Below, one piece after another: positions 5,030 to 56,598 of a stretch of 64,000 nt of DNA. Positions within the stretch are counted from its first letter, which is position 1. Each line of letters opens with the position of its first letter. Under the pieces are notes generated by a model. It searched no databases and was not told the origin of the DNA. It saw nothing but the letters and a program-made list of their open reading frames with translations. The stretch lies in the NCBI RefSeq assembly GCF_000585495.1, contig NZ_CP007264.1:372001-436000 (forward strand), given 5' to 3'. The stretch comes from Thermococcus nautili (GTDB taxonomy: Archaea; Methanobacteriota_B; Thermococci; Thermococcales; Thermococcaceae). The translations under genes were made by a program, and so were the position numbers.

Positions 5030-6910
5030 TCAGCCGGTCGCGTTGGCCGTCGTGTTGGTGGAGCAGACGAGGGGCTGTGGCTGGTACTTGAAGAGCTCTG
5101 GGTGAAGCAGTTCTGCCATCTCTTTGATTGCCAGCACAATCCTCGGGCTGGGCCTCTGGAAGACGTTGGGGTCGCTCACGGTGTAGACCCTTCCGTCCTT
5201 TGCCGCCTTTATCGTCGAGAGCGGGCCTGAGCAGAATATCTTCGGGTCAACGTAGGCCGAGGCTATAATCACCACGTCGGGGTTCCTCGCCACCACCTCT
5301 TCCTCGCTCACGGCCTTCCAGCCGGTAACGTCCTCGAAGGCGTTCTTACCGCCGGCAATCCGGATTATGCTGTCGGCGAAGGTGTCCTTTCCGGCTATCC
5401 AGTAGCCGTTGTAGGTGCTAACGAGGTACATCACGCTCGGCCTGCTCGCGTTGGCGACGAGGCCCTCGATGTAGCTTATCTGGGCCTTCATCTCCGCCAC
5501 GACGAGGGAAGCCTGCTCCTCCCTGTCGAGGACCTTCCCAAGGAGTTCAACCTGCTGGTAAATTCCGTCGATGCTCTTCGGGTCGACGATTACCACCGGT
5601 GCAATCTTCTCAAGGCTCTCCAGGAAGCCCTGCTTGTAGAAGACCGCGTTGTCGGCTATAATCAGGTCGGGCTTGAGCTTTGCAATCTCTTCAAGGTTCG
5701 CGTAGGCTCCGTAGCCACCGACCTTGGTGATGTTCTTAACGGCTGGAGGCCAGTCTGCGTACTTCGTGACACCGACGAGCCTGTCACCGGCTCCGAGGTA
5801 GAATATCGTCTCGGTGATGCTCGGGGCGAGTGAGACAATCCTCTGGGGCTCCTTCGGGATTATAACGGTCCTGTTGGCCATGTCCTTAATCGTGAGCGGA
5901 TAACTTGTCTTGAATGCATCGGGGTGGAGGATTCTTGCCATGGTCTCGATTCCGCGGATTAGCCTCGGGCTCGGGTGAATGAGGTCGTTCTCGTTCTCAA
6001 TCATGTAAACGTGGCCGTTCTTCACCGCGTTGGTTCCGGCGAAGAGCTTGTAGGCTTCTTCCACTGTCATACCGCAGTGGGGGGTGAGTATTATGACGTC
6101 CGGGTTCCTTGCGAGAACCTCCTCAAGGCTGACCTGAGGCCAGTTCTTGGTGTCGTTGAAGATGTTCACACCACCGGCGATGCTGATGACGTCGCTTATG
6201 AAGGTGTTTCCGCCGGCGGTCATGAGGGGCTTGTTCCAGATGACGTAGAAGACCTTGACCTTCGGCTGGTCCTTCATGAGCTCCTTCATTGCATCGACCT
6301 TGGCGTTGAACTCGTCGATGACCTCTTTGGCCTTATCTTCCCTGTTGAAGACCTTGCCGAGGAGCTCTATCGCCCTGGGTATCTCGTCGAGGCTCTTTGG
6401 GGCCACGATTATAACCGGCGCAATCTTTTCAAGGCTCTCAAGGTAGCCCTGTTTGTAGAGAACAGCGTTGTCCGCTATAATCAGGTCGGGCTTGAGGCTC
6501 GCTATCTTCTCGAGGCTTGCGTAGGCCCCGTAGCCACCGACGGAAGTTATGTTCTTGACTTCTGGGGGCCAATCCTCGTAACCGGTGTCTCCGACGACCC
6601 TATCGAGAAGGCCGAGGTAGTAGAGGTCTTCGGTTACGGCAGGTGCAAGGGAAACGACGCGTTTGGGCTCCTCTTTGATTGTGACCGTCCTGTTCGCGAA
6701 GTCCTTGACCGTTATCGGGTAGTAGCTCTTCTCCATCTGGGTCGTGCTGGAACTCGTGGTTGAGCTCGTCGTTGAGGTCGTTGAGCTGGTTGGTGTAGCT
6801 GTGGCCGAGGGAGATGAGGTCGAGCTCGTGCTCTCATTTGAGGCGATACAGCCCGTCGCTACAACGGCTCCCAGCAGGAGCAGGACGACGAGGAGTGCGG
6901 TTCTCTTCAT
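5030..6910 (-). CDS. Lipoprotein with two tandem iron/cobalamin-type periplasmic binding domains
   Basis: 626 residues from ATG 6908-6910 with GGTGAT 4 nt upstream. The N-terminus MKRTALLVVLLLLGAVVATG followed by Cys is a lipoprotein signal, then a Ser/Thr-rich linker. Two Peripla_BP_2-like domains follow, at about residues 65-325 and 330-610. They are close copies: both carry YPxTxKDxANRTV, RxVSLAPxxTE, VGGYGAYAxLE and KPDLIIADNAV. The family binds siderophores, haem or cobalamin for ABC import. No permease or ATPase is adjacent. The tandem duplication in one chain is unusual and suggests two lobes or ligands per lipid anchor. Confidence 0.88.
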   Translation of the reverse strand: MKRTALLVVLLLLGAVVATGCIASNESTSSTSSPSATATPTSSTTSTTSSTTSSSTTQMEKSYYPITVKDFANRTVTIKEEPKRVVSLAPAVTEDLYYLGLLDRVVGDTGYEDWPPEVKNITSVGGYGAYASLEKIASLKPDLIIADNAVLYKQGYLESLEKIAPVIIVAPKSLDEIPRAIELLGKVFNREDKAKEVIDEFNAKVDAMKELMKDQPKVKVFYVIWNKPLMTAGGNTFISDVISIAGGVNIFNDTKNWPQVSLEEVLARNPDVIILTPHCGMTVEEAYKLFAGTNAVKNGHVYMIENENDLIHPSPRLIRGIETMARILHPDAFKTSYPLTIKDMANRTVIIPKEPQRIVSLAPSITETIFYLGAGDRLVGVTKYADWPPAVKNITKVGGYGAYANLEEIAKLKPDLIIADNAVFYKQGFLESLEKIAPVVIVDPKSIDGIYQQVELLGKVLDREEQASLVVAEMKAQISYIEGLVANASRPSVMYLVSTYNGYWIAGKDTFADSIIRIAGGKNAFEDVTGWKAVSEEEVVARNPDVVIIASAYVDPKIFCSGPLSTIKAAKDGRVYTVSDPNVFQRPSPRIVLAIKEMAELLHPELFKYQPQPLVCSTNTTANATG

Positions 6911-6918
6911 GGTTATCA

Positions 6919-6977
6919 CCTGGACGTTTTGTCCGGATTAAATGTCCAGGGGTGTTGAGAGGGAAGGGTTTTTAAAG
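6919..6977 (-). promoter_or_regulatory. Promoter and leader inverted repeat of the binding-lipoprotein gene
   Basis: The TATA-like element is GTTTTTAAAG (plus strand 6968-6977), placing transcription near 6947. The arms CCTGGAC (6919-6925) and GTCCAGG (6944-6950) form a perfect 7-bp inverted repeat filling nearly the whole leader. One arm includes the GG of the GGTGAT ribosome site (6915-6920). It could be a repressor operator at the start site or an RNA hairpin that partly hides the SD. Confidence 0.5.
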
Positions 6978-13548: not shown

Positions 13549-14126
13549 CTTCTCACCTTCGAGAGCTTATCGGCAATCCTGAGCGGTTTTGGATAGCCTT
13601 CACCAAGTGCCTTCACGACTTCAACCGCCGACCTCAAATCGACCAGATGTCCGACGCTTACATAAGCTTTTCCTACCCTTTCGTAGAGGTTCTCCGGCAC
13701 ACCGCGGAGCGGTCTCTTCGCCACGCCAATGACGGGCCTTCTGAGGATTAGTCCGATGTGGGAGGCCAGCCCGTAGCCCCTCGGGTGCGCCCTCCCGTGG
13801 CCCTCAACAAGAAGAACGTCGAAGTCCGCGTTTTTGACGACCCTCAAAACGGGCATCGTCTCCCTGAGGAAGAAATAAGTGGGGATGTAAGGAAAAGCTA
13901 CCCTGACCCTAACCGTTCTCGTCTCGATTGGCTCGCACTCTGGAAAGGTGCATATTACGAGGGCCGAGACCGCATCATCTTCCCTGTAGGAGACGTCAAC
14001 CGCCCCGACGGTCTTCACCCTGCTGAGGTCGAGTGGTCTCTCGACTATCCTTCTTGAGAGCCTCCTCTGGAGCTCGGCTATCTTTTTGAGTTTTTCGGTA
14101 ATTAGGTAATCCTTTAATTCAGTCAT
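13545..14126 (-). CDS. nfi: Endonuclease V (deoxyinosine 3' endonuclease)
   Basis: 193 residues of the Nfi family, which nicks one base 3' of deoxyinosine and starts repair of deaminated adenine, important at high temperature. Visible motifs are [12 protein letters not shown] (catalytic Asp), the conserved [11 protein letters not shown] (Glu) and [21 protein letters not shown]. The position usually written as Asp in bacterial VDGHG is Glu here. An SKVRR tail ends the protein. It overlaps the translin gene by 8 nt upstream and ribK by 4 nt downstream. Confidence 0.93.
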
Positions 14127-14739
14127 TCTTTAGGGCCTTCTCAAGTTTCTCCTCAAGGCTCCTGTTGAGCTTGGCCCTCGTGAGGTCCTCAAGGGTTCTC
14201 TCCAGGGCGTAGCGGGCCTGGTCTTGCTTCTGTCTCACGTTAACAAGCCCCTTTGGATACTCAAGCGTTATGAGGGCGTTGTAAACCCTCTCCATCTCGC
14301 GGTAAACCGTCTCCGCGGTGTCGAGGTCTCCCTCAAGGAGCCTGTGGAGGAAGTACCTCCTGAGCTCACCTATGAAGTCCCCAACGCCGAGAACGTAGTC
14401 CGCCTCGGGAACACCGAGCTCACCTGGAGTTGGATAGGGCCTTCCGCGAACGTAGCTGAGGAGGAGGGACGCTTCAACGAACTCCTGGTGGGCGGTCTGA
14501 ACGTAGCCGGAGTAGTAGAGGTCCGGGTGGTTTTTCAGCGTCTCCCTCAGCAAGTTCACCCGCTTTCCGGCTTCGCTCAACCGTTCCTCCGCAAGGTTTA
14601 AGTCGTTCCGGTGGACGGCTTTGACGGCGTCCCCGCTGAGTCTCACTATTTCCCTCGTGACCTTGAGCGCCTCTTCCCTCAGGGAATCCTTCTCATCAAG
14701 AACCTTTCTAACTGACTCGATTATCGCCTCTATCTCCAT
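14119..14739 (-). CDS. Archaeal translin-family protein
   Basis: 206 residues, almost all helical, beginning [20 protein letters not shown]. The region [21 protein letters not shown], followed by [21 protein letters not shown], matches the translin/TRAX fold, whose octamers bind and sometimes cleave small RNAs or single-stranded DNA. It is the first gene of the run translin-nfi-ribK-membrane protein, all coupled by overlaps. The promoter lies downstream of the H/ACA-like RNA on the same strand (TTAAAAATG region near 14770). Confidence 0.88.
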
Positions 14740-24698: not shown

Positions 24699-27600
24699 TC
24701 AGTGGGCGAGTGGAAGGGTCTCGCGAATCTTTCTGAGGAGCTCGTCCTTGGCCGGCGAGTCCTCGAGGGCTATCTCAAGCACCTCGTCAATCCGCTCGAC
24801 CGGGTAAATCTCTATTTTCTCGGCCTTGTCCGGGCTCAGGAAGACGTCCTTCTCGTTGGCCTTGGGGATTATGACCTTCTTTATGCCGGCCTCTATGGCA
24901 GCTTCAATCTTCGGCGTCGCACCGCCTATCGGCAGGACCTCACCGCGAACGCTGAGCGAGCCCGTCATTGCAACGTCCTGCCTTATCGGAATGTTCTCAA
25001 GGGCCGAGATGACGGCGGTGGCAACGCTTATGCTCGCCGAATCACCTTCGACGCCCTCGTAGGTCTGGAGGAACTGGACGTGAATATCGTACCTGCTGAT
25101 GTCCTCGCCCTTGTAGCGCTTGATTATGGCCGAGACGTTCTGAACGGCCTCCTTCGCTATCTCTCCGAGCTTTCCTGTGACGATTATCTTTCCTTCTTCC
25201 TTGCTCGCGGCGGGAGCAACAACCGCTTCAATCGGCAGGACGATACCGCTCTCCTCGCCGATAACTGCCAAGCCGTTGACGCGACCGATTTCGCTCCCCT
25301 CGCTCTTTATGACCTGGTACTCCTTCTTCCTCTCGATGTACCAGTCCGCGAGTTGCTTTTCAAGGGGCTTGGCGAGCTTGAGGGCCTCAAGAACGTCTTC
25401 CCGCTCGACAATCTTCTTGCCCTTCTTTATCGCGATGTCTCCGGCGGCCCTCACTATACCGCCGAGGTCGCGGAGGCGTAGCGTTAGGTGGCCCTTCCTG
25501 CCGGCCCTCTTCTGAGCTTCGCGAACGATTTCCTCAACGGCCTCGCGGGTGAAGTGCGGAATCTTGCCGTCGCGCTTTACCTCCTGGGCAACGAACTGGA
25601 CGAGCTTTCTCCTGTTCTCTATCGTGTCCGGCATCGTGGTTCTCATGTAAACCTCGTAACCGTAGCCCCTAATCCTCGAGCGGAGCGCGGGGTGCATCTT
25701 CTCTATCGTGTCGAGGTTTCCGGCGGCAACCAGTATGAAGTCACAGGGAACCGGCTCGGTCCTCACCATGGCACCGCTTGAGAGCTCGCTCTGACCAGTA
25801 ATCGGGAACTTCTTCTCCTGCATCGCGGTGAGAAGGCTCTGCTGCATCTTGAGGGTCAGCGTGGCTATCTCATCTATGAACAGGACGCCCTTGTGGGCGC
25901 GGTGTATCATTCCCGGCTCAACGCGCTCGTGGGCCGGGGTTCCAAGGCCTCCGGAGTTCTTGACGAAGAGGCCGTTGGCTATTAGGTTGCCCTTCTCCGT
26001 CGTCAGGTTGTAAGTTACCTCAACTTCCTCCCACGTCTCGATGAAGGCCCTCCTCTCGCCCTTCTTCACGCGCTCGAACCATTTCCTGAGCTCGTCGAGC
26101 CTGTCGGCGTGTCTCGAATCGCCCGCTTCGTTCAGGTACTTTTCAACTTCGGCGATGAACTTCTCCCTCTTCGCTGGGGAGAGGCTTATCGGAACAAACT
26201 CAAGGAACGTGAGAACGTTGTCTATGGACTGCGACAGGATGAGCCTGACCTTGTGCTTGCCCCTTGCTTCATCAACCCTGACCTTGGCGTCTATTCCAAG
26301 GAGGCCGAGGTGCCACGCGAGCTCCTCGAAGAACGGCAGCTTGTTGTCGAGCTCCTCCGTAAGCTGTGCCACTTCAAGCGTTCCGTTGAACTTTATGCCG
26401 TCCTTGTAGCGGGCGAACCTCGGAACGCTGCCGTCGCCACTGTAAAAGCCGTCGAAGAAGGCCAAAAACAGCGATGGCCTGAGCTTGACCCACCACGGGA
26501 GTTCAAGCCTGACCCTTGTCTTGTTGCCGACTGGAGCACCGAGGGCCACGAAGAACCGTATAATCCTTCTGTCCCAAGTCCTGAAGAGAACGCTACTGCC
26601 CTTTGCCTCCCTGTTCTCCTTGATTTCGTAGTCGAATTCGCCAAAGAGCTCCTTGAGTGCCCCAACAAACCTCTCAACGGCCTCTTTCTCGCTTGAGATG
26701 AAGCTCAACGTATTGAGGTTCCTGTCGATGTTGCCGTCGCTGAAGAGCGCCCCCATCAGGAGGGCGACCTTCTCAAGCCTCTCGTCGTCGCTTCTTAGGG
26801 GTAGGAGGCCGAGCCCCTTGAGCTCCTCCGCCATCTTGAGGGATTTTGGCTTTGCCCCCTTCTCCCACCAGCGGAGGGTGCTCGCCTTTATTCCGAGCTC
26901 CTTCGAGGCCCTCTTGTAGCCGTGGCCTGTCCTCTCGCGGTGCTCCATCCAGCGGAAGTAGTCCCTCAGCTTGTCCTCCTCACCGTAGGTTCTGGCTATC
27001 CCGAACTCGTCGAGCACCACAACAGGAACACTGATGAGCTCGTCCCTTTCTGTGAGCTCCCCGACTTCTTTGAGCCCGCTGGGGGTGTAGACCCTGTGGT
27101 CGGGGGTTAGGGCGAGCCAGTAGTCCTTCTCAAGGTTGACTATCCTCCTCAGCCTCTGCTTTCCAACCCTCTTGTTGGCGTAGAGGAGCTTTGTGAAGCC
27201 TTCTCTGGTGAGGACTTCAACGTTCTCATCCCTGAAGTCGTGGTAGATTACCCTGACGTCTCCGTCCATTCCTTCACCCGACGGGTTTTTCAGGGCATTC
27301 TCGACGAAGTTCCTGAGCTTTACGGCCCTGACCTTGCCGTTTTCCCTGATAACAACGCTCTCATTTCCGCTAAAGCACTGGAACGGGTCATGTCTTACGT
27401 CTCCAAGCAGTGCACCTGCGTGCGCTCCCGTTGCGTCTATGAACGGGGCCTTGGTTCTTCCGCAGTTGTCAACGAGGAGCTTGGGAACGAGGACGGTGTT
27501 CCTGAAGCGCATGTTCGAGAGCGCCATCATGGTGAGGATTATGACGAAGATTCCCATGAGGAGCGTCGTTGCCGTGAACTGCAGGAAGAGGGCGAACATG

Positions 27601-28025
27601 ACGGTGAACATGACGAAGAGCAGTATGTAGGACTTCATGCTCTCCTGGCTCTTTGCCTTCTCGCGGTACTTCTCGACTATCCTCCTACCCTGGCACGCCG
27701 GAACAGTTTTGATTTTGGGCATGTTCTCGTCTTCTGGATTCGGGAAAACGAGAATGTCTTCGAGGTTCTCTGTTGGAAGGAGCTCCGCCATCGCCTGGCC
27801 GAGCATGGACTTGCCCGTTCCCGGTTCGCCGATTAGGAGGACATGCCTCCTCTGGGTTGCGGCGGTTTTTATGACCTCAACCGCGTGGTCCTGCCCGATG
27901 ACCTGGTCTATGAGCTTCTCGGGAACCTTGATTTCCTCGGTCGTCTCAAACTCGACGCCAAGGTCCAGTTTTTCCCCGTACTCGCGCGGGAGGGGTTTTT
28001 CCTTAACCATCTCCTCCTCGCCCAT
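24699..28025 (-). CDS. lon: LonB membrane AAA+ protease precursor containing an intein
   Basis: 1108 codons from ATG 28025. Removing the 474-residue intein leaves about 634 residues, the size of archaeal LonB. Extein features: Walker [13 protein letters not shown], two adjacent membrane helices ([18 protein letters not shown] and [14 protein letters not shown]), Walker [11 protein letters not shown]. The protease domain has the catalytic Ser in [13 protein letters not shown] and Lys in [14 protein letters not shown]. It degrades unfolded membrane and cytosolic proteins in an ATP-dependent way. ATG 28043 is an alternative start. TATA (GTTATAAAT region, 28069-28076) gives a leader of about 20 nt. 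The earlier frame to 28262 is divergent promoter and neighbour sequence. Confidence 0.95.
25956..27377 (-). mobile_element. Intein with LAGLIDADG endonuclease inside lon
   Basis: 474 codons. The N-terminal splice block is [10 protein letters not shown], directly after ...DVRHDPFQ. Block B is [12 protein letters not shown]. Two LAGLIDADG motifs are [12 protein letters not shown] and [14 protein letters not shown]. Block F is [21 protein letters not shown]-type, ending in Asn, and the next extein residue is Ser ([10 protein letters not shown]). The penultimate residue is Lys rather than the usual His. A helix-turn-helix-like insert ([20 protein letters not shown]) lies before the endonuclease motifs. 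The insertion is between the two halves of the AAA+ module, just after Walker A and the membrane helices. Pyrococcus Lon proteins are known to carry inteins here. Confidence 0.93.
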
Positions 28026-28137
28026 CTCCTTTCCCTCTCTCATCTCTAAGACCCAATGAACCGGGCGATTTATAACCTTTTTCGACGGCGGTGGAAAAAG
28101 ATAAAAGCCTGGACGAGAACTCAACTCAGGTGAGAGT

Positions 28138-28929
28138 ATGAAGGTTGAGGAGCACGTTGCGTTCACGGCCAAACACGGGGACTGGAGCGTCGCCAAAAAG
28201 CTGACCGACATGGAGAACGAGGGGATAGCGCACTTTTTGGCCGGAGTTTCAAACACGGTCAACGCGAGGATTGGCGGCTACCTGAGCGATGCAGTAGACG
28301 TTGAAGGCATAAGGAAGCTCGCCGAGGAGCTCAGGAAGAGCTCACTGGCCGATACCGTCGTTGCCCTCAAGTCCCCCGGAACCGCGAGGAAGCTCGGCAA
28401 CCTTGTGAACGAGACCGACAAGAAGCTCAGGAAGCTCCTCGTGGATGTTGCCAAGGCCTACCTCGTCAGGGAAACGCTCAGGCCCCTTGTCCCCATTGAT
28501 TACCCTGAAGGAATCCTCGAAGGCGTTGACGTGGAGTTCCCCTTCGAGGATGAGCACGTCAACTTTACAGCCAAGCACGGACGCTGGATAGTCGTCAAGA
28601 GGCTCATCATAGACGAGAAGACCCCGATGCTCGACGTGGCGAGACTGCTCGCGAGCATAAACGAAACCGTTACCCTCAAGCTCCCCGTTTACGCGGACAT
28701 AGACGTAGGGGGAATCGAGGAGGAGTTCTCGGCCTTCAAGAAGGTCAAGAAATCGGACATTCCAAAGGTCATAGAGGTTTACGAGGCGTTCGAGCCTTCA
28801 CTCTACGCGGACGAGCCCTTCGAGGAGCACGCGAGGGTTTACGCCCTCAGGGTGGCGCTCGATAAAATCGGCCTCAACCTTGACGTTCCCGCCAAATCCC
28901 TCGAAAAGTACCTCGAAAAGAAAGGATGA
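28138..28929 (+). CDS. DUF2666 family protein with two internal repeats
   Basis: 263 residues built from two similar halves: [19 protein letters not shown] at the start and [19 protein letters not shown] at about residue 140, each followed by a helical region. I associate this with DUF2666, archaeal proteins of unknown function. No membrane segment or catalytic motif is obvious. The stop codon TGA (28927-28929) is part of the C box of a guide RNA that follows, so the two transcripts must overlap. Confidence 0.8.
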
Positions 28930-46148: not shown

Positions 46149-49100
46149 TCACTTCTTTTCCTTTTTCTCGGCCTTGTGAAGTGGCCACCAGGCCTTCTCG
46201 CCGAAGAGGCTCATCATGGCCGGGCCGAGGAAGTACACGGCGAGCGTTGCCGTTATGAGCACTCCAGCGGCCAGCGCGAATCCTATCTCCCTCGTTCCCC
46301 AGGTCGAACTGGTCATCAGCGCCCCGTAGGTCGTCGCCAGCACCGCCGCGAGACCGATGACGACGAGGTCCATGCTTCCGGCAGCGACTATGAGGGCCTC
46401 CTTCGGCGAACGGCGCTCGAACTCATCGCGGGCTTTGACGAGGTAGAAGCTGTTGTAGTCTATGCCGACTCCCATGAGCACTACGAAGACCATCAGTGGC
46501 AGGAACCACATTATCTCCTGGCCAAAGACCTTCTGGAAGAGCCACGTGGATATCGCTATGCTGAGGAGCACTCCGGTGCCGATGGTGGCCATCGTCGAGA
46601 TGACCGCTGGAATGCCCCTGAGCGTCGGTATGAGGGACAGGAACATCAGCACGAGCGCCACTGGGAAGATTCTGTGCCAGAATATGTTGTTGATGAGGTT
46701 GCTGAGGTCGAGGTCCAAAGCGGCTCCACCGCCGACCATGCCCTTGGCTATCTTTCCGCTGGATTCGTAGCCCTTCATGAGGTCCCTAATCCCCTCGACC
46801 ATCTGGTGGGCGGGCTTCGTCGTGGCCTCGTACTTGCTGACGACCTCGATGAGCACCATGTTTCCAGTGGTCGAGATGTACTTGTCCCCGCCGATGGCCT
46901 TGAGCTCCTCAAGGCTCGCGTTGACCGGCTTTCCGAAGGGCTGGGTAACGGTGTAGACGTACTTGACACCGTCAATCTTCTCGATGTCCCTGACAATCTG
47001 GTTGATGGTCGCGAGGTCCTTATCGGTAACCGGGTGGTTGAACTTGATGAGGACGTAGGTTGCGCCCATGACATCAGCACCAAGCTTGCTCTGGCTCACC
47101 TTAAGGAAGTGGTAGGTCTCGCTGTCCTTCGGGAGGAAGAGCTTGACGTCGTGGGTTCCGTTGAAGTTGGCGAAGGCGTAAACGGCCGGCGCGAGCAGGA
47201 GCAGGAATATGAGTATGACCGCCTTGGCGTGCTTGATTGACCACTTGGCGATTCTGCTCTCCTCGTGCACGTTGGTCTCCTGAACGTGCCTGATGTGCCT
47301 CGGCCACCAGAATATCGGCTTGTCGCCTATGAGTGCCGTAATGGCGGGTATGAAGGTCAGGCTCGCGAGGAGGACGACTATGACCGCTATGGGCGCAATG
47401 ATACCCATCTGCTTGAATATCGGGAACTCCCAGGCAAGTATGAAGCTCGCGAAGGCTATGATGTCCGTTGACGCGCTCGCGAGGACTGCATCCTTAGCCC
47501 TCTTCAAAGCCTCGCTCGCGGCCCTGTCGTGGTCGTAGCCTTCAGCCAGGTACTCCTTGAAGCGGTGCAGGTAGTAGGTCGAGTAGTCTATACCGAGACC
47601 TAACGCGGTCGTCACGGTAATCATCTGGGCCCAGCTTCCGACGTTGATGATGTCCCCCTTGGCGAGCAGGTAGAGAATTCCGAGGGCTGTTAGCGTTGCC
47701 GTTGCGACGCCGGTGAACGGCAGGAGCGTTGCGAGGAGGGCAACCCCGAGGATTATGAGGAGCACTATCAGCGCACCGATGAAGCTGAACTTGGTCGTCT
47801 TGTTGTTGTCCTCCTTACCGTAGTGTATCATCTCGTAGGTCTGAACCGGCGTTCCGCTGATGTAGGCCTTTGCATCTGGGAAGTACTTCTTCATCTCCTT
47901 CAGGAGGACTTCCTTCGCCTTGAGGGTGTTCTCGTACTGGAACTTGCTCTGCTCCTCGAGATTGGTCGTGTTGAGGCTCTTCGGAACCATCGTTATCAGC
48001 ATCGTCGTGTTGTCCGGGCTCTTGAGCATGCCGATGTAGCTTTCAGCGAGGCTGTAGATGGACGGATAAATCTGCTCCTCTATCGGCTTAACGTCCTCCC
48101 TGGTTATCTTTTCTGGGTCGTCCCTGAACTGGAAGGCAATATCCACGAGCTCTTTGGCGTCTATGTTGAGCTCAACTCCGAGGTTTATCTCCTTCACGAA
48201 CTTCTCGACGAGCTTCGCCGTCTTCTCCTTGACGAGGGCCTCGATATCGGAGTCGCTCATCGGATAGTTCTTCGCGACCGCGAGCATTATCTCCTTCAGC
48301 GTCTCCTTGACGTCCTCGGGGGCCGTCACGTTGGCGAGCTTCTCGTTGACGCCCTGCTCAAAGAGCTCGTAGGCTATCGTGTAGGCGTCCTTTCCGGCAT
48401 AAATGTCGTCAACGACCTTTCCAATGTCTATCGGCGCGTTCCCGGCGAGGCTCGTGATAATCTCCTTGACGGCTTCCTTCACGCCGACTCCCCTGGCGAG
48501 CTCCTCAGGGTTCTTGACGACGGCGTTGACCATAACCGTGGCTACATTCTCGTTGCGGAGCTTCTCCGCGGTCTTCTGAATTAAGATTTCCTTCGCTATC
48601 GGCGCGACGTTTCCGTTTGAGTCGTAGACCTCGCTTATGACGCTCTCCGGAAGCTCAACGCCTTTCTCCTTCACGAGCTCGGTGAGCAGTGAAACCGTTG
48701 CCTTTTTCAGCGCCTCAGGGTTCTTCGCCAGAACGCCGGTTGCGTTGGCGTCGAAGGTAACGACCGTCTTCGCTATCGGCTTGGCTAACGGCTTCTGTTC
48801 TGCTGGAAGCTTCTCGGCCAGCGCCCCTGCGAGGAGGTTCTCCTCAAGCTCCCTGGTCGGACCGTAGATGAGGAGCGTCCTCAGTACCTCGTCGGCGTTG
48901 GGCATCTGGAGGAGCGGACTGCCGGCCATAAGAGCCTTCGCGACCTCGATTGTGGCGTCCTCAACGGCCAGAGCGCTCGGGTCCCTTCCGAGGCTTATCG
49001 AGACGTTGACGATGTAGGCGAGAGTCTTCGCGGGAACCTCACCGAAGCCCGGAACGGTGTAGCTACCACCGGCCATCTCGATGACCGCCGGTAGGTTCTT

Positions 49101-50204
49101 GAGAGCGTTGCTCGCTATCTCCTCAACGGGTTCTACCGCGTTCTCGCCAAGCTGAATGAGGGCGTAATCGCTTCCAGCCTGCTCGTCAAACGCAAGAACT
49201 CCCTGGTAGAACGCAACCGAGTAAGCCTCCGCGAGGTTCTTCTGCATCGGGTCGGCTATCTGGGTCAGAACCATAGCCTTCGTGACGTTGGCCAGGAACG
49301 CGTCGGTTATGGCCGTCGCCCCGTAAGCAGTGTAGGCAGGATAGGTCGCGTTGTAGACCGCGTAGACGAATTCAACCGGAACGCCGAGCTGAGTCGCTAT
49401 CGCCTGTGCCGTCATTTCGCTGAGTCCGCTCTGGTAAGCTCCTGCCTGGACGAGGGCCCCGTAGGTTCCGAGGATGCCGAGGTAGGTCTTGGCGTAGCCG
49501 TCGCTCAGGTTGTAGAGGCCGAGGTTGAGGCTCGCTATCGTTGCGTTCAGCGTTCTCAACTGCTCGCTTGCATTGGTGAGGTTCTGGTGAAGCTCAACGT
49601 AGGCCAAATCCGTCTGGTTAAGCGCCTCCCTGAGGGCGAGGCTCTGGTTGTAGAGGGTCGTCAGGTTGGCTTCGAGCGCGAGATAAGCCCTTGCCAAATC
49701 TGGAACGGTTTCGTTGAGAACCTTTACCTGGTTGGTCAGGTTCTCAATCTGGATTAGCGTCATTCTGTAAGCCATGCTGGCGTTGAGGGCCGAGGTGTAG
49801 AGAATACCCGTGAGATTTGCGGTTGTCTTCGTGAGGTTGAGGGCTATCTCGTAGGACTTGTTGTGGAGCAGTTCAACGGCATCGTAGTAGGAGGTAAAGT
49901 TGCTCCCGTAGGGTTTCGCTTCTGCTTTAAAGCGCTCATAGGCTTCTTTAGCCTGGGGACTGTTAACGTTGATTCCCGTGATGATTATGTACGTCATGTT
50001 GTCGTTCTGGGAGAAGCCCGGAAAGTACTCGCTCATGTTGTTCTGAACCTCAACGCTCTCCACGTGCTTGGGCATGAACTGGCTCATGCTGTAGTTGGTG
50101 ACATCGCTCAGCTTCATCGCCAGCGGCGTTGCGAGCACTATGACCACTATCCACACCGCGACGATGAGCTTTGCGTGCTTCACAATCCAGTCGTTCCACG
50201 CCAT
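46149..50204 (-). CDS. Giant RND/MMPL-family exporter
   Basis: 1351 residues. After one N-terminal helix (LIVAVWIVVIVLATPLAMKL) comes an extracytoplasmic region of about 750 residues, rich in Ala/Thr/Asn helices. Two blocks of about five membrane helices follow (FIGALIVLLIILGVALLATL, GLGIDYSTYYLHRFKEYLAE; then MVFVVLMGVGIDYNSFYLVK), with the paired Asp-Tyr motif GxGIDY of the proton relay in both. A second, smaller exterior domain lies between. The family exports lipids, drugs or cell-envelope precursors. The extracytoplasmic part is very large for an archaeal MMPL. It is divergent from a PadR regulator with shared repeats. Confidence 0.92.
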   Translation of the reverse strand: MAWNDWIVKHAKLIVAVWIVVIVLATPLAMKLSDVTNYSMSQFMPKHVESVEVQNNMSEYFPGFSQNDNMTYIIITGINVNSPQAKEAYERFKAEAKPYGSNFTSYYDAVELLHNKSYEIALNLTKTTANLTGILYTSALNASMAYRMTLIQIENLTNQVKVLNETVPDLARAYLALEANLTTLYNQSLALREALNQTDLAYVELHQNLTNASEQLRTLNATIASLNLGLYNLSDGYAKTYLGILGTYGALVQAGAYQSGLSEMTAQAIATQLGVPVEFVYAVYNATYPAYTAYGATAITDAFLANVTKAMVLTQIADPMQKNLAEAYSVAFYQGVLAFDEQAGSDYALIQLGENAVEPVEEIASNALKNLPAVIEMAGGSYTVPGFGEVPAKTLAYIVNVSISLGRDPSALAVEDATIEVAKALMAGSPLLQMPNADEVLRTLLIYGPTRELEENLLAGALAEKLPAEQKPLAKPIAKTVVTFDANATGVLAKNPEALKKATVSLLTELVKEKGVELPESVISEVYDSNGNVAPIAKEILIQKTAEKLRNENVATVMVNAVVKNPEELARGVGVKEAVKEIITSLAGNAPIDIGKVVDDIYAGKDAYTIAYELFEQGVNEKLANVTAPEDVKETLKEIMLAVAKNYPMSDSDIEALVKEKTAKLVEKFVKEINLGVELNIDAKELVDIAFQFRDDPEKITREDVKPIEEQIYPSIYSLAESYIGMLKSPDNTTMLITMVPKSLNTTNLEEQSKFQYENTLKAKEVLLKEMKKYFPDAKAYISGTPVQTYEMIHYGKEDNNKTTKFSFIGALIVLLIILGVALLATLLPFTGVATATLTALGILYLLAKGDIINVGSWAQMITVTTALGLGIDYSTYYLHRFKEYLAEGYDHDRAASEALKRAKDAVLASASTDIIAFASFILAWEFPIFKQMGIIAPIAVIVVLLASLTFIPAITALIGDKPIFWWPRHIRHVQETNVHEESRIAKWSIKHAKAVILIFLLLLAPAVYAFANFNGTHDVKLFLPKDSETYHFLKVSQSKLGADVMGATYVLIKFNHPVTDKDLATINQIVRDIEKIDGVKYVYTVTQPFGKPVNASLEELKAIGGDKYISTTGNMVLIEVVSKYEATTKPAHQMVEGIRDLMKGYESSGKIAKGMVGGGAALDLDLSNLINNIFWHRIFPVALVLMFLSLIPTLRGIPAVISTMATIGTGVLLSIAISTWLFQKVFGQEIMWFLPLMVFVVLMGVGIDYNSFYLVKARDEFERRSPKEALIVAAGSMDLVVIGLAAVLATTYGALMTSSTWGTREIGFALAAGVLITATLAVYFLGPAMMSLFGEKAWWPLHKAEKKEKK

Positions 50205-50238: not shown

Positions 50239-50309
50239 TTTTAAACATGTCTATTTCCGACATGTCGTCACAGGGAATAGTTTATAAAGGTTTTTGGTCA
50301 TCCACATGT
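50239..50309. promoter_or_regulatory. Divergent promoter with three ACATGT sites
   Basis: ACATGT occurs at 50245-50250, 50260-50265 and 50304-50309, each followed by C; the first two are 15 bp apart. On the minus strand the exporter TATA-like GTTTAAAAG (50239-50247) overlaps the first site. On the plus strand GTTTATAAA (50280-50287) directs a leaderless start at ATG 50306, which lies inside the third site. This layout would let one PadR protein repress both genes. Confidence 0.6.
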
Positions 50310-50797
50310 CAGGGGTGGTTGCGACGGAGTTCGAGAGGAAAATCATAAAGGGCCTCTTCACGGTCCCTTTGAAGAACATAATCCTCGTCATCGTCGGATT
50401 AAAGGGAGAAACACACGGCTACGAGATACTCAAGGAGCTGGAGAAGTTCACGGTTGGAATCTGGAAACCGAGCCACAGCAACCTCTACACGCTCCTCAAC
50501 AAGATGGTGGAGGAAGGTCTCCTAGAACCGAGGGAGGAGTACCGCGGTAAGGTGAGGCGCGTAAAGTACAGGCTCACAGACAAGGGGTGGGAGTACCTGA
50601 GGACGTCGAACGACTTAGCTTTGCGCTCGCTCTACACCGCGATAAGCTACCATGAGAGGCTCAAGAAAAAGATTGAGGAAATGGGTCGCGAGAGGAAAAT
50701 TGACAAGGAAACATTGAGAGAGTACCTTGAGCTCCTCAGGCAGATTAGGGACCTTCTTGACGACGAAATTAAGGCCATAGAATCCAGGCTCGGATGA
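50306..50797 (+). CDS. PadR-family transcription regulator
   Basis: 163 residues from ATG 50306 (MSGVVATEFERKIIKGLFTV); GTG 50315 is an alternative. Winged helix IILVIVGLKGETHGYEILKE, then KPSHSNLYTLLNKMVEEGLL, then YRLTDKGWEYLRTS, followed by a C-terminal helix for dimerisation. PadR proteins sense hydrophobic or phenolic compounds and typically repress adjacent exporters; the divergent RND gene fits. Probable repressor of 46149-50204 and of itself. Confidence 0.92.
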   Translation: MSGVVATEFERKIIKGLFTVPLKNIILVIVGLKGETHGYEILKELEKFTVGIWKPSHSNLYTLLNKMVEEGLLEPREEYRGKVRRVKYRLTDKGWEYLRTSNDLALRSLYTAISYHERLKKKIEEMGRERKIDKETLREYLELLRQIRDLLDDEIKAIESRLG

Positions 50798-50892
50798 ATC
50801 CAGATATCTTTGGCTTTTTGGCCTTTTCTGACTTTGTTACTCCGTACCTCTTCAGTTTCTTCGATTCATAATTGAGCCGACAAACCGATAAA

Positions 50893-50950
50893 CTTTTATA
50901 TACCTTCAGCACCAGTTAAGTACAGAAAATTGTACTACAAAAGTCTGTAC
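50893..50950 (+). promoter_or_regulatory. Promoter and operator-like repeat of the ArsR-led operon
   Basis: TATA-like CTTTTATATA at 50893-50902 predicts transcription near 50922. AGTAC (50919-50923) and GTACT (50932-50936) form an inverted repeat with an 8-nt AT spacer over the start. A further CTGTAC is at 50945-50950, just before the SD GGTGGT (50953-50958). Confidence 0.55.
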
Positions 50951-50961
50951 CTGGTGGTAGC

Positions 50962-51372
50962 ATGGACGAGCTAAAGGCCCAGCTTGAGGAACTGAGGAGG
51001 AAGCTGGCCCTGCTTGAGGAGAGCGTTGACCCCGTTGACGAGGTCATGCTCTCCATAAAGGAGAGGCTCAGGAAGAAGCTGAGCGACGGCCAGCTCCCGG
51101 AACTCGACGAGGAGAAGGCCGCGAGGACCCTCAAAGCTCTGGCAAACCCGGACAGGATTAGAATCCTCAAAATGCTATCCAAACGGCCGATGGGCTTCAA
51201 GGAGATTAAAGAGGCCCTCGGCGTTGAAAGTCCAACCGTTTCTCACCATCTCAAGCTCCTTCTCAAGACGAGAATGGTCAGGAAGGGCGACAAGTACGAA
51301 ATCTCGCCCGACGGACGTTTGTTTTTGCGCCTGCTTGAAATCATAACCGCACTTGAGGAGGTGGAAGAATGA
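50962..51372 (+). CDS. ArsR-type winged-helix regulator with coiled-coil N-terminus
   Basis: 136 residues. The N-terminal 35 form a coiled coil (MDELKAQLEELRRKLALLEE). A winged helix follows (LKALANPDRIRILKMLSKRP, IKEALGVESPTVSHHLKLLL, then MVRKGDKYEISPDGRLFLRL). No Cys is present, so it is not a classic metal sensor. First gene of a coupled operon; it ends in ATGA with the membrane protein gene. The repeat in its promoter suggests autoregulation. Confidence 0.88.
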   Translation: MDELKAQLEELRRKLALLEESVDPVDEVMLSIKERLRKKLSDGQLPELDEEKAARTLKALANPDRIRILKMLSKRPMGFKEIKEALGVESPTVSHHLKLLLKTRMVRKGDKYEISPDGRLFLRLLEIITALEEVEE

Positions 51373-52652
51373 GCTATCCGTTTTATACTGAAGAAAGCCC
51401 GCGCTTCAAGGTCGCGGAGTACCTGAAGAAGATAACGGCCGTTCTGCTGATAGTCTGGCTCTTCAAAGGTTATCTCGGCCTTGAGCCCTACAACCGCTAC
51501 CTCGTTTACTCGATAATCGCGCTGATATTCGCCTTCGAGCTGCTGAGCGTTGGCAAATGGGTTGGGGTGACCGTTACGGGAATCGTCTTCGCGCTCGCCA
51601 AGGGCTTCCTGTGGACGAGCGTTTTTCTCTACTTCGGCGGCTGGCTCGGTATGCCGGATGACCTGCACGACTTAGCTGGAAGGGCCTTTGCCTACGCCGT
51701 CGTCCTCTCAATAGCGGGACTGCTCATCGGAAAGGGCGAAGAAAAGCGGTTCACTTGGAAGGTCGAGAAGAAGACTTACGAGTTCAGCGGTGCTGAGTTC
51801 GGGGACGTGAGGCTGAAGGGACGCGGGAAGGCATATCCCATCAAGTTCGGGAACAGGCGGGTTGGCTGGGCCATAGACGGCGAGGTGGAGGTTAAGGCCG
51901 AGACACCCCTCGGGACTATAAAAAAGGCCCTCTCAAGCCCCGTCGTGGTCTGGGGTGAGCTGACCGTCGGGAAGAAGACGAAGGCGGATGAGGGCTTTGT
52001 CGCTGAAGTGAGCAGGCTAATCAACCCGGACAGGCTCTACAAGAACAAAAAGGGCTCAACGGCCGTGGACCTCGGCATCGTCAAGGTCTACGAGGGCGAG
52101 GACTTTGAGTATGTCAAGGTTCCCTTCGTGGAGGTCATCGAGACACCCCACGGAGAAGAAGTGAAGATAGGACCCTTCAGAATCCGCGATGGGAACCCTA
52201 GAAAGCCGAAGGAAATGCTCACCATCAGGGAGCTCCGCAACGGCTTCCAGCTCACCAAGGTCGGCGACCGGCTGAAGATAGAGACGGAGGAGTTCTCGAT
52301 TGAGGTCGAAGGGGGTAGAGTCGTTTACAGGAGCGGAAACGAAACGCTCAGCCTCGGCGATGCCGTCTCGCTCCGCTCCGGAGATATCTCCGTCACCGTC
52401 GGCAAGGGGCGGGCGAAGATACGCATCGAGGACGTTGTAATCTCCGCCAGGGACGGGGTCGTCAAGATTAGGGCGGGCGGAAGGACCCACACCATAGAGA
52501 ACGAGGAAGCCTACCGCCTCGTGGTTAGGAAGGCGAAGGAAATCGTTGAGGAGCAGAGCGCGGGCCTCATCGAGGGCTTCGGCGTTGACAGGACCATGCT
52601 CACGCGGCGCGTTAAGGAGCTCCTAGACGAGCTGATGAACTACGTGGGGTGA
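51369..52652 (+). CDS. Membrane protein with large beta-rich cytosolic or surface domain, unknown function
   Basis: 427 residues. Four hydrophobic helices in the first 125 residues (ITAVLLIVWLFKGYLGLEPY, YSIIALIFAFELLSVG, VTVTGIVFALAKGFLWTSVF, FAYAVVLSIAGLLIG). A domain of about 300 residues follows with regular short strands (KIETEEFSIEVEGGRVVYRS, NETLSLGDAVSLRSGDISVT), likely a beta-solenoid similar in style to DUF4097 proteins, and a helical tail. Coupled to the ArsR gene by ATGA. The family is not recognised. Confidence 0.75.
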   Translation: MSYPFYTEESPRFKVAEYLKKITAVLLIVWLFKGYLGLEPYNRYLVYSIIALIFAFELLSVGKWVGVTVTGIVFALAKGFLWTSVFLYFGGWLGMPDDLHDLAGRAFAYAVVLSIAGLLIGKGEEKRFTWKVEKKTYEFSGAEFGDVRLKGRGKAYPIKFGNRRVGWAIDGEVEVKAETPLGTIKKALSSPVVVWGELTVGKKTKADEGFVAEVSRLINPDRLYKNKKGSTAVDLGIVKVYEGEDFEYVKVPFVEVIETPHGEEVKIGPFRIRDGNPRKPKEMLTIRELRNGFQLTKVGDRLKIETEEFSIEVEGGRVVYRSGNETLSLGDAVSLRSGDISVTVGKGRAKIRIEDVVISARDGVVKIRAGGRTHTIENEEAYRLVVRKAKEIVEEQSAGLIEGFGVDRTMLTRRVKELLDELMNYVG

Positions 52653-52656
52653 GGGT

Positions 52657-52737
52657 ATGGAGCCGGAGAAGCGTCTCAATGGTGCCGAGGAGGCCCTCTT
52701 CGACTTCCAGCCCGGGCCTCTGGAGGGATGGCTGTGA
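52657..52737 (+). CDS. 26-residue ORF coupled between two operon genes
   Basis: ATG 52657, 4 nt after the preceding stop and behind a GGTGAGGGT SD, opens a 26-codon frame (MEPEKRLNGAEEALFDFQPG...) that ends in TGA overlapping a GTG start (GTGA, 52734-52737). The acidic, Pro/Gly-rich peptide has no membrane helix. The overlap geometry, identical to that of the other junctions here, supports translation. It may be a genuine microprotein or only a coupling ORF. Confidence 0.5.
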   Translation: MEPEKRLNGAEEALFDFQPGPLEGWL

Positions 52738-53390
52738 GGTTTGAGAACGTCGAAAGGGTCTGGATGAAGCTCGTCGATGCAGATGTGGAGATACTACCTT
52801 CGCCCAACGGAGCGGTTCACATTGAAGCCGCCCCGGAATCGGCGTTTTCCCTGAAGGAACGCTCCGGGAAGCTCAGCATCCTTACATCCACGGAATGGAA
52901 GCTCAAAAATCTTCCAAGGAAAGACAAAGAGCGCGCCCGGCTAGTCATGAGGGTCCCAAAGGGCGTAGAAATAGCAGGGGGAATGAAGCGGACCTCTCTG
53001 CACGCTGAGGCGGTGAGCTTCGACTCCCTCGCGATTGGAGAAGCCACCGCGGAGCTCTCGGAATGTTCCGTCAGAGACCTCGCGGTCGGTCCTGCAAGGC
53101 TTAATGGCTCTCTCTACGTTTGGAAGAAGACGAAGATAGCTCTCTCCATGGGGAGCCTTGAGCTCAAGGTGCTTGAACTGGAGGCACCAATCGACGCCTC
53201 GGTCGTCATGGGCTCCCTCAGACTGTCCCTGCCCGAGGACTGCGATGCAACTGTGGAGGTCGCGGGAAACGCTGACGGGGTCATCCTGAATTCGGGACGG
53301 CTCCTCGGGAGTGGCGAGCACAGGATTCGGCTCTCAAGCGCGAAAGGTGTCGTTGTGGTTGATACTTGGGGTGAGTTCGATGATGTTTGA
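52734..53390 (+). CDS. DUF4097-like beta-solenoid protein
   Basis: 218 residues from GTG 52734 (MRFENVERVWMKLVDADVEI) with GGAGGG 7 nt upstream; ATG 52728 has no suitably spaced SD. Repeating short strands (VMRVPKGVEIAGGMKRTSLH, NGSLYVWKKTKIALSMGSLE, SVVMGSLRLSLPEDCDATVE) resemble the DUF4097/LiaG right-handed beta fold. No signal peptide. It overlaps the next gene. Probable partner of the two neighbouring beta-rich proteins. The function is unknown. Confidence 0.75.
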   Translation: MRFENVERVWMKLVDADVEILPSPNGAVHIEAAPESAFSLKERSGKLSILTSTEWKLKNLPRKDKERARLVMRVPKGVEIAGGMKRTSLHAEAVSFDSLAIGEATAELSECSVRDLAVGPARLNGSLYVWKKTKIALSMGSLELKVLELEAPIDASVVMGSLRLSLPEDCDATVEVAGNADGVILNSGRLLGSGEHRIRLSSAKGVVVVDTWGEFDDV

Positions 53391-54036
53391 AAACGTCCGG
53401 GAAGTTGACCTGAAGGCCACGAACGGCCGGGTTGAGATTGAGGGCTGGGAAAACGACTACGTTGAGGTTAACTACACGACACACGGCGAGGTGGAGGTGA
53501 TAATCGAGAACGAAAACGGGAAGCTCGTCATAAGGGAGGAGCCGAAGAGAAGGTTCCGGTTCGCGGGCGTCCTCAAAGCGGAGGAAGGCTGGGCCGAGAT
53601 AGAGCTTAAAGTGCCAAAGGGCGTCCCGGTGAAGGCCAAAAACGTGAACGGGGAGATTATAGCTGAAGGCGTCCGCTTCACCGGCGTGACCACGGTGAAC
53701 GGTGAGATAACGCTCAGAAACTGCGAGGCCGAGCTGATAAAGAGCGTGAACGGCGAGATAGAGGCTCACCTTCCCGTTGCCGGCCCTCTAGAGGTTTCCA
53801 CTGTGAACGGGGACATAGAGGTGACCCTCGAAGAGCTCGACGGTGACGTCTCGGTGAGCTGTGTCAACGGCGACATAACGCTCCGCCTCACCGAGTTCTG
53901 CGACGCGAGGGTTGAGGCAAGGAAAGTGAACGGGGACGTGAAGCTCATCGGAATCCAGGACAGGGTCATCGGCACCGGGGACTTCATAATCCGGGTGAAG
54001 ACCGTGAACGGCGACGTTCGGGTTGAGCTGATTTGA
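53380..54036 (+). CDS. DUF4097 family beta-solenoid protein
   Basis: 218 residues from ATG 53380 (or 53383), with GGGGTGA upstream. A regular repeat of the type VNGEIxxxxxxxxG runs through the sequence (KAKNVNGEIIAEGVRF, TTVNGEITLRNCEA, KSVNGEIEAHLPVA, STVNGDIEVTLEEL, SCVNGDITLRLTEF, RKVNGDVKLIGIQD, KTVNGDVRVELI), each unit being one turn of a solenoid. Bacterial relatives (LiaG-like) belong to envelope stress operons. No signal peptide. Last gene of the ArsR-led operon. Confidence 0.88.
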   Translation: MMFENVREVDLKATNGRVEIEGWENDYVEVNYTTHGEVEVIIENENGKLVIREEPKRRFRFAGVLKAEEGWAEIELKVPKGVPVKAKNVNGEIIAEGVRFTGVTTVNGEITLRNCEAELIKSVNGEIEAHLPVAGPLEVSTVNGDIEVTLEELDGDVSVSCVNGDITLRLTEFCDARVEARKVNGDVKLIGIQDRVIGTGDFIIRVKTVNGDVRVELI

Positions 54037-54103
54037 TTCTTTAATTCCATAATTATCTAATCCTGCAATTCAATGATTGTTGATGGCAAGGGGGTTAGCG
54101 GAC

Positions 54104-55345
54104 ATGCTCGACTCGAGAATGGGCCGGAACTTCTGGCTCTACGCGGTGGGCAGGTGGATTTCGCGGGCCGGATGGGTGGTTCAGGATGTCGCGGTCCCAC
54201 TCTACGTGCTCGATAAGACGGGAAGCGGGGCAATGATGAGCCTCTTCGTGATGGCCGAGCTGATTCCGGGTCTTGTAGTCAACCCGATTGCGGGCGTTGT
54301 GGGCGACCGCTACGACAGGAAGAAGCTCATGTACGGTCTCGATATAGCTAGGGGGATTCTGCTCTTCGCCGTTATCGCCTTCAACCTTCTCGGCATCTAT
54401 CAGCTCCTCGCGGTTCAGGTGGTCATGAGCGTCATGGGGGCCTTCTTCTCGGCGGGCATAGTGGGAATGTTCCCGGATTTGGTGGAGAGGGAGCAGCTGG
54501 CGAGAGCGAACTCGATACTGCAGAGCGGGGGACAGGTCATCAGGATACTCGGCCCGATTCTTGGAGGTCTAATCTACGCCCTCGGCGGAATTAAGCTTGC
54601 AATCCTGATAAACGCGGTCAGCTTCTTCGGCTCCGGCCTCTTCGAAGTTCTAATTGACTACCGCCGGGAGACGCGGGAGCTTTCAAGCCTGCGCGAGGTC
54701 TGGTCGGAGATGCTTGACGGCTTCCGCTTCATAAAGGGCTCAAAGAACCTGATGGTCTTCGTGAGCTTTGGCGTCCTTCTCAACACGCTCCTCAACCCTG
54801 TCCTCGTCGTGGTCATTCCCTACCTCACGAGGGTCGAGCTCGGCCTCTCCTCCGTTCAGTTCGGGAGCGTCGAGACGGTTGCAACGCTCGGCGCCCTCGC
54901 TGGGAACCTGCTCATCGCTTTGAAGCTCGGCCAGCGGTCGGAGGGTATGCTCTTCAGGGCCCTGTTTACAGAGCTCGCCTGTCTCACCGCCCTCGCCTTC
55001 GTGACGCGCTCCATACTTGGTGAACTTGCGTATCCGGCCCTCCTCGTGACTATCTGCCTCATAGGGTTCTTCAACACCCTTGTGAACGTTCCGCTGTTCA
55101 CAAAGCTCCAGAAGGCGGTCCCGGACGATTTTCGCTCCCGCTTTTTCACGGCCCTTGAGACTGTCATGATGGCGACTACGCCGCTCGGCATGGCCCTCGT
55201 CGGTCCCCTGCTCGACGCCGCGGGAGTAACGCCGGTGGTCCTCGCGCTCACGATTCCGAGCGTGCTCATAGCGTTATACTACTACCTCCGCTTCGGGAGA
55301 ATCGTTATAAGCATCGGTTCGGAAAAGCTGGAGGTGGTACCGTGA
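54104..55345 (+). CDS. MFS transporter, first of a tandem pair
   Basis: 413 residues from ATG 54104 (MLDSRMGRNFWLYAVGRWIS), chosen by alignment with its downstream paralogue and a GGGGGT SD; ATG 54083 is possible. About 12 helices. MFS loop 2-3 motif AGVVGDRYDRKKLMYGLD is present. The pair's common pattern (YVLDKTxSGxMMxLFxxAE, FPDLVxxExLxxANS, GGIKLAxLINAVSFFGSGLFE) places both in the enterobactin-exporter-like/MFS_3 branch. Substrate unknown. Confidence 0.88.
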   Translation: MLDSRMGRNFWLYAVGRWISRAGWVVQDVAVPLYVLDKTGSGAMMSLFVMAELIPGLVVNPIAGVVGDRYDRKKLMYGLDIARGILLFAVIAFNLLGIYQLLAVQVVMSVMGAFFSAGIVGMFPDLVEREQLARANSILQSGGQVIRILGPILGGLIYALGGIKLAILINAVSFFGSGLFEVLIDYRRETRELSSLREVWSEMLDGFRFIKGSKNLMVFVSFGVLLNTLLNPVLVVVIPYLTRVELGLSSVQFGSVETVATLGALAGNLLIALKLGQRSEGMLFRALFTELACLTALAFVTRSILGELAYPALLVTICLIGFFNTLVNVPLFTKLQKAVPDDFRSRFFTALETVMMATTPLGMALVGPLLDAAGVTPVVLALTIPSVLIALYYYLRFGRIVISIGSEKLEVVP

Positions 55346-56598
55346 GCCTCGGCAGGAACTTCTGGCTCTTCGCCATCGGCCGCTTTATTTCCCAGCTCGG
55401 CTGGGCAGTTCAGGACGTCGCTCTGCCGCTCTACGTGCTGGACAAAACGCACAGCGGCTCAATGATGACGCTCTTCATCTTGGCGGAGATAATCCCCTCA
55501 ATAATTGTCATGCCCTTCGCCGGCGTCGTCGGCGACAGGTATAACAGAAAGTGGCTCATGGTCGGCTTCGACCTGCTCAGGGGAGTTCTTCTCTTCGGCG
55601 TCATAGCCTTCAACTTCCTCGGAATCTACCAGCTCCTGGCGGTTCAAATCGTGATGGCAATCCTCGGTTCCTTCTTCTCCGCGGGAACCGGGGCGATGTT
55701 CCCGGATTTGGTTGATAAGGAGCTCCTTGAAAAGGCCAACTCGACGGTCGCCTCTCTGACCATAATAGCGCGCCTCCTTGGGCCGGCCCTTGGCGGTTTA
55801 ATCTATGGAATCGGCGGGATTAAGCTCGCGATGCTGATAAACGCGGTCAGTTTCTTCGGCTCGGGCCTGTTTGAGATGCTAATTCGCTATGAGTGGAAGG
55901 CGAAGCCGATTGAGGGGCTCGGCCAGGTATTGAGCGACATAAAGGAAGGCGTCCGCTTCATTTTCAGACACAGCTACCTTAAGACTCTGATGACCTTCGC
56001 GATATTCATGGGAATCTTCGGTGCGCCCTTCGGTGCCGTCTTGCTCCCCTACGCGATGAGGGAAGTGCTCAAGTTCACGAGCGTCCAGTTTGGCCTCATG
56101 GAGAGCTTCTTCATGGGCGGGGCCCTGCTCGGAAACATCCTCATAGCAGTTAAGTTCGGTAAGAACGCCGGAAGGTTCCTGTTCAGGGCGATGTTCATAA
56201 ACGGCTTCGTCATGGTGGTCTTCATTTGGCTCATATCCCCTGCTTCTGGCCTGGGAAGGAACGAAGCCTTCGCCCTTTTGATGGCCGTTTCAATCATCAT
56301 GGGAGTGGCCGAGGCCTTCATAGACATTCCGATACAGTCGAAGATTCAGCGTGCCGTCCCGAGCGAGGTTCGCGGCAGGGTCTTCTCTGCCCTCGGAATC
56401 CTCACGAGGATTGCCACGCCCCTCGGTCTCGTCCTCGTCGGTCCCCTCCTGAACATCTACCCCGCGTGGCTCGTGGCGTTTGGGATGTGGTTTGGCATGG
56501 CAGTCGTGGTGGTCTACTACTGGGTGAAATACCGGGATGTCCTTCTAAAAGACGTTGACGGGCCACCAGCGGCAGAAGTGGAGAATCCGAGGCCGTAA
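55342..56598 (+). CDS. MFS transporter, second of a tandem pair
   Basis: 418 residues from GTG 55342 (MSLGRNFWLFAIGRFISQLG), overlapping the first MFS stop (GTGA), with GGAGGTGG upstream. It is a clear paralogue of the preceding protein along its whole length, with motif AGVVGDRYNRKWLMVGFD. The tight coupling suggests the two products work together or form a heterodimer, but MFS proteins usually act as monomers. A basic-Pro C-terminus follows the last helix. Confidence 0.88.
   Translation: MSLGRNFWLFAIGRFISQLGWAVQDVALPLYVLDKTHSGSMMTLFILAEIIPSIIVMPFAGVVGDRYNRKWLMVGFDLLRGVLLFGVIAFNFLGIYQLLAVQIVMAILGSFFSAGTGAMFPDLVDKELLEKANSTVASLTIIARLLGPALGGLIYGIGGIKLAMLINAVSFFGSGLFEMLIRYEWKAKPIEGLGQVLSDIKEGVRFIFRHSYLKTLMTFAIFMGIFGAPFGAVLLPYAMREVLKFTSVQFGLMESFFMGGALLGNILIAVKFGKNAGRFLFRAMFINGFVMVVFIWLISPASGLGRNEAFALLMAVSIIMGVAEAFIDIPIQSKIQRAVPSEVRGRVFSALGILTRIATPLGLVLVGPLLNIYPAWLVAFGMWFGMAVVVVYYWVKYRDVLLKDVDGPPAAEVENPRP

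Follow-up and report, generated by a model that had tools for sequence, protein, structure and literature searches.

We identified a conserved operon led by an ArsR-family regulator in Thermococcus nautili, within a window of 64,000 nucleotides (positions 372,001 to 436,000 of contig NZ_CP007264.1, renumbered here from 1). The genes encode, in order, the regulator, a four-helix membrane protein (TMsol), a 26-codon ORF (mini), two Toastrack (DUF4097-like) proteins (TR1 and TR2) and MFS exporters. With mini and TR1 as variable members, this arrangement is syntenic in most Thermococcales. The locus is real and conserved, and we conclude that it probably serves in stress response and efflux, with a membrane protein as the sensor.

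Gene order and conservation

The following features were identified:

50884-50902, + strand: promoter elements of the operon, BRE and TATA box (ACCGATAAAC TTTTATATA), aligned and conserved upstream in relatives
50920-50950, + strand: 31-bp putative ArsR operator (GTACAGAAAATTGTACTACAAAAGTCTGTAC), recognised by conservation and spanning the expected transcription start
50962-51372, + strand: ArsR-family winged-helix regulator with an N-terminal helical extension and no cysteine (Pfam HTH_5, 5e-13; NF033788 over cut-off)
51369-52652, + strand: TMsol, a four-TM membrane protein with a beta-rich cytosolic (predicted) region and two C-terminal helices, no Pfam model
52657-52737, + strand: mini, a 26-codon ORF with a conserved C-terminal LFDF...EGWL
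52734-53390, + strand: TR1, a divergent Toastrack (DUF4097-like) protein (paralogy to TR2, predicted fold)
53380-54036, + strand: TR2, a DUF4097/Toastrack protein with VNG repeats (Pfam over cut-off)
54035-54078, + strand: 8-bp-phased AATT repeat array (AATTNNNN, four to five copies) between TR2 and MFS1
54104-55345, + strand: MFS1, an MFS exporter of TC 2.A.1.21 type (PF07690, 7e-33; TIGR00900, 4e-94; synteny)
55342-56598, + strand: MFS2, a second exporter (PF07690, 1e-37; synteny)

The five ORFs at 50962-54036 were confirmed at their original coordinates and are tightly coupled. The initial annotation described them as linked by ATGA/GTGA overlaps. The tight common layout stands, as does the ATGA overlap of ArsR and TMsol, but TMsol and mini are separated here by a 4-nt gap (the GTGA overlap at this junction occurs only in relatives) and the TR1 and TR2 ORFs share 11 nt. 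The likely start of TR1 is GTG 52734 (GGAGGG-N6-GTG), which is overlapped by the mini stop; ATG 52728 is an alternative start. That outline was also incomplete, as it overlooked the ArsR operator and the exporters. The gene set reaches past 54036 to one or two MFS exporters, which belong to it. The MFS1 ORF is open from 54077, with its start placed by GGGGG-N9-ATG, leaving a spacer of 67 nt after TR2, and MFS2 is joined to MFS1 by a GTGA overlap. A scan against PHROGs returned weak matches only.

Directly upstream, a gene for an MMPL-family transporter (46149-50204, - strand) lies divergent from one for a PadR regulator (50294-50797, + strand). Because synteny of this pair is limited to part of the genus, it is probably a neighbouring but separate module. 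We considered PadR as an operon member but rejected it, because many loci lack PadR and a separate promoter serves ArsR.

TMsol was found in 70 of the 94 family genomes searched, with one copy in each. A synteny survey, in which 20 Thermococcales loci were examined in detail, found a shared strand and the common order ArsR-TMsol-(TR1)-TR2-MFS. The Toastracks are lost and the exporter is kept in one genome (G002). Both mini and TR1 are missing from many genomes, and thus neither is essential to the operon core. Other families of the class (G094-G114) have distant relatives of TMsol (about 515-560 aa). On the contigs that we read, these relatives are preceded by an ArsR gene, either immediately or with a small zinc-ribbon gene in between, and neither Toastracks nor exporters were seen adjoining the pair in these families. 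Given this recurrent neighbourhood, the ArsR-TMsol pair looks older than the Thermococcales operon. The zinc-ribbon-like gene between the two was seen in two other families (L104:3510-3887 and L107:8027-8371, the latter on the - strand).

Regulator, membrane protein and Toastracks

An ArsR-type regulator was expected from the initial annotation, and the HTH_5 score of 49.1 bits (cut-off 22) bears this out. The putative operator sits between the TATA box and the ArsR start. Among genomes having the upstream region, it lies within 5 mismatches of the consensus in 67/67 and within 2 mismatches in 55. Its 5' 23 bp, allowing up to 3 mismatches, form a single site in this genome, so that no further copies indicative of a wider regulon were identified genome-wide with that pattern. 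A near-invariant and genome-unique site upstream of ArsR suggests autoregulation, with ArsR as a candidate dedicated autorepressor of the operon.

Direct ligand sensing is common among ArsR proteins. ArsR itself could therefore be the sensor, of a metal or a hydrophobic ligand bound at an unfamiliar site, with TMsol and the Toastracks as downstream membrane-stabilising effectors only. The match to the metalloregulator subfamily NF033788, which is just above cut-off, is in keeping with this, as is induction of the exporter by Cd, Zn and Ni (see below). However, a cysteine metal site is lacking in all 67 of 67 ArsR orthologues (no Cys), the window protein has no His in its C-terminal helix, and the ArsR-TMsol pairing is conserved where adjoining Toastracks and exporters were not seen. 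We consider ArsR as the sole sensor unlikely, and favour TMsol for this role.

The structure model of TMsol has TM helices at residues 11-31, 39-59, 69-92 and 103-126, as anticipated for a four-helix membrane protein. Next come a beta domain at 130-195, a segment of low model confidence at 221-281, and twelve short strands with a period of about 8 residues (283-376, pLDDT about 90) that precede two C-terminal helices. Confidence in the model is moderate (pTM 0.57). Mean K+R counts are 4.0 before TM1 and 5.7 after TM4, versus 2.0 and 0.6 in the predicted outside loops. Because the positive charges flank the TM1 and TM4 sides, the soluble part is predicted to face the cytosol by positive-inside topology, which agrees with the earlier suggestion of cytosolic solenoids. 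A sensor role for this membrane protein, also proposed then, is plausible.

The initial annotation named two DUF4097-like proteins, and this identity holds for TR1 and TR2. TMsol, also described there as having a solenoid, forms a family of its own. Pfam gave no match to it (including the LiaI-LiaF models up to E = 1), its fold has no PDB match at E <= 0.001, and comparison with the DUF4097 profile gave no similarity (hhalign 0.75%). TMsol as a third DUF4097 protein was rejected on these grounds. A BFVD fold search gave nothing usable. TMsol is the most novel component of the operon. Two small proteins (L109:6090-6578 and L114:1-381, both on the - strand) share a PFxKVxExxxGxYVxVGPIxV motif with TMsol relatives and precede a weak match to LiaI-LiaF-TM, which may connect TMsol with membrane proteins of the Lia type.

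TR2 matches DUF4097 (PF13349) at 1.1e-12, with 48.3 bits against a cut-off of 22.9, and is the only match to this model in the genome. TR1 scores below the cut-off (0.006, 16.5 bits) and is counted as a Toastrack homologue because it is paralogous to TR2 (tblastn 1e-7 to 1e-17; hhalign 1.2e-16). Its structure model (pLDDT 90.5) has 4QRK as the best PDB match (2e-7), followed by 3LYC, 3PET, 4YGU and 4OPW, with TM-scores of 0.3-0.56. TR1 thus models as a beta-helix Toastrack fold like that of 4QRK and 4OPW, which have been named as reference Toastrack structures (PMC11237479). No hydrophobic segment was identified in ArsR, TR1, TR2 or mini, and the Toastracks lack signal peptides, as originally stated. 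TR1 of genome G032 (L007/L035) is interrupted early, by a stop near codon 40.

For bacteria, Toastracks have been proposed to form a sub-membrane signalling platform, and the same publication lists sporadic occurrences in Euryarchaeota (PMC11237479). Thus, the idea of a scaffold is not itself new, though such a structure below the membrane is plausible here. The arrangement had been described as unfamiliar from archaea, and this applies to the ArsR-led version: neither ArsR nor Thermococc- is mentioned in the main text of PMC11237479 or PMC9239133. What is new is the archaeal ArsR/TMsol/mini version of a Toastrack operon. Published PspA-free Toastrack operons carry several regulator types (PadR/HAAS, GntR and LytTR) and combine Toastracks lacking signal peptides with a membrane protein and a one-component regulator, as in T. 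nautili; one published context includes transport genes, comparable to the exporters here (PMC11237479). The operon in T. nautili differs in being archaeal, in its use of ArsR, in a membrane family without a Pfam model, and in encoding MFS exporters and mini.

The LiaIHGFSR system of Firmicutes (including LiaF-LiaG) also has a four-TM protein, a beta-rich soluble part and a DUF4097 neighbour, which is LiaG in that case. The T. nautili operon could thus belong to the Psp/LiaFSR family itself, as a divergent archaeal form, given its four-TM protein with a beta-rich C-terminal part beside Toastracks and the related motif that adjoins a LiaI-LiaF-TM match in a distant relative. We consider this very improbable. 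No match to PF04012 or PF04024 (PspA and PspC) was identified genome-wide, Pfam searches of the operon genes found no LiaS/LiaR-like kinase and response regulator pair, there is no PspA-type LiaH, and TMsol is neither matched by the LiaF/LiaI models nor homologous to DUF4097 by profile comparison. Because PspA and PspC are absent from the genome, we file the operon with Toastrack envelope-stress systems rather than with Psp or Lia.

The 26-codon ORF

The 26-codon ORF of the initial annotation proved to be real. Intact forms (26-48 codons) with the same C-terminal motif, [GHERP]LFDF...(L)EGWL/EGLI, were identified in 29 genomes. Four others (G001, G038, G043 and G046) have degraded or fused forms. 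In G043 (L004, 2792 onward), mini and TR1 make up a single in-frame fusion that has lost LFDF. Across 31 LFDF-type motifs, codon positions 1 and 2 are almost fixed and position 3 is variable. The pN/pS ratio of LFDF is 0.03; it rises to 0.21 when taken over GHERPLFDF and to 0.72 in the N-terminal part. The mini block gives 0.22 in frame, against 1.1 and 1.5 when read in either of the remaining forward frames. Judged from these substitution patterns, mini is a real ORF under strong, frame-specific selection at the peptide level. It provides a tight case of an archaeal ORF of fewer than 50 residues that is selected in this way.

Mini or a remnant of it was found in 16 of the 17 TR1 loci. It also occurs in 17 loci with TR2 only, and is therefore more than an accessory of TR1.

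The mini stop overlaps the start of TR1, whose Shine-Dalgarno sequence lies within the last codons of mini. This raises the alternative that mini is a leader or coupling device only, with an inert peptide: its translation could open the ribosome site of the TR gene, or a GC hairpin and U-run could tune transcription. A hairpin is indeed predicted in the mini mRNA of many species. In the window it is not strong, and against synonymous randomisation it is weak (mean z -0.7). Together with the pN/pS values by frame, this disfavours an RNA hairpin as the main cause of conservation in this region. The next gene's Shine-Dalgarno sequence may account for the conservation of the EG residues, which would leave LFDF, retained with differing synonymous codons, unexplained. 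We therefore doubt that mini acts as a leader alone, and prefer a role for the peptide itself.

Exporters and proposed mechanism

MFS1 scores 316.1 bits against TIGR00900, versus a cut-off of 319.6; its T. gammatolerans orthologue scores 340 bits and is over the cut-off. The operon exporter of that genome (1276961-1278052) is its only MFS protein over the TIGR00900 cut-off. Taking tg1302 as the single glutaredoxin-like gene, at 1227.7 kb, a crude ORF count from there numbers the exporter about tg1353-1356. The gene tg1358 is annotated as a drug antiporter and likened to tet(V) of M. smegmatis. From the uniqueness of the match and the approximate gene count, the operon exporter is very probably tg1358. 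Expression of tg1358 increased 41x under Cd, 32x under Zn and 9x under Ni (qRT-PCR, Table 4 of PMC3407056), and did not respond to heat or γ-rays (PMC3407056).

These features recall ArsR/SmtB metal-responsive efflux operons, which also have an ArsR autoregulator (putative here) and an exporter as output, metal-induced in the case of the T. gammatolerans orthologue. Unlike in those operons, the ArsR protein is without cysteine, genes for Toastracks and for a membrane sensor-like protein stand between regulator and exporter, and the exporter is of drug:H+ antiporter type.

The 67-nt spacer between TR2 and MFS1 contains the AATT array, which is conserved within 3 mismatches in 43 of 64 relatives versus about 0.1 expected after shuffling. 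Similar arrays occur at about eight places in this genome, including 14092-14127 in the window. There may thus be two adjacent modules, an ArsR-TMsol-TR unit and MFS exporters with a promoter or regulator of their own in the AATT spacer, in which case metal induction would be uninformative about ArsR. The constant gene order and strand in the Thermococcales loci examined, and the retention of the exporter in G002 without Toastracks, point the other way, and we regard the division into two modules as unlikely. Under the single-operon reading that we prefer, metal induction may still bypass ArsR if the spacer holds a separate promoter.

We propose an autoregulated stress operon, free of PspA and kinases, and give this explanation an even chance of being correct. 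The cysteine-less ArsR would repress the operon by binding the conserved 31-bp operator, which spans the expected transcription start. TMsol, anchored by its four TM helices, would sense a membrane or efflux-relevant disturbance and then release or sequester ArsR, as the ArsR-TMsol pairing in other families of the class suggests. TR2, with TR1 where present, may assemble in the cytosol just below the membrane, on TMsol or close to it, as published Toastrack biology and the gene coupling lead us to infer. The output would include the MFS exporter or exporters, and the LFDF of the mini peptide would probably dock to a partner in the complex.

A broader reading, which we offer tentatively, is that this is a new class of archaeal transmembrane signalling. 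TMsol would control a partner ArsR across the class Thermococci and relatives, and Thermococcales would have recruited Toastracks, an exporter and an LFDF peptide that tunes the complex. With a near order-wide operon, a unique and near-invariant operator, an orphan membrane family, published metal induction of the exporter and genetically tractable members in the group, this system makes it directly testable how archaea without PspA, PspC and Lia-type kinases monitor their membranes.

Two further observations were made by eye elsewhere in the window. A Lon-type protease ORF of 1187 aa (24699-28262, - strand) appears to contain an intein with a homing-endonuclease-like stretch, and the gene at 5030-6919 (- strand) appears to encode a periplasmic binding domain duplicated in tandem, with two similar halves.
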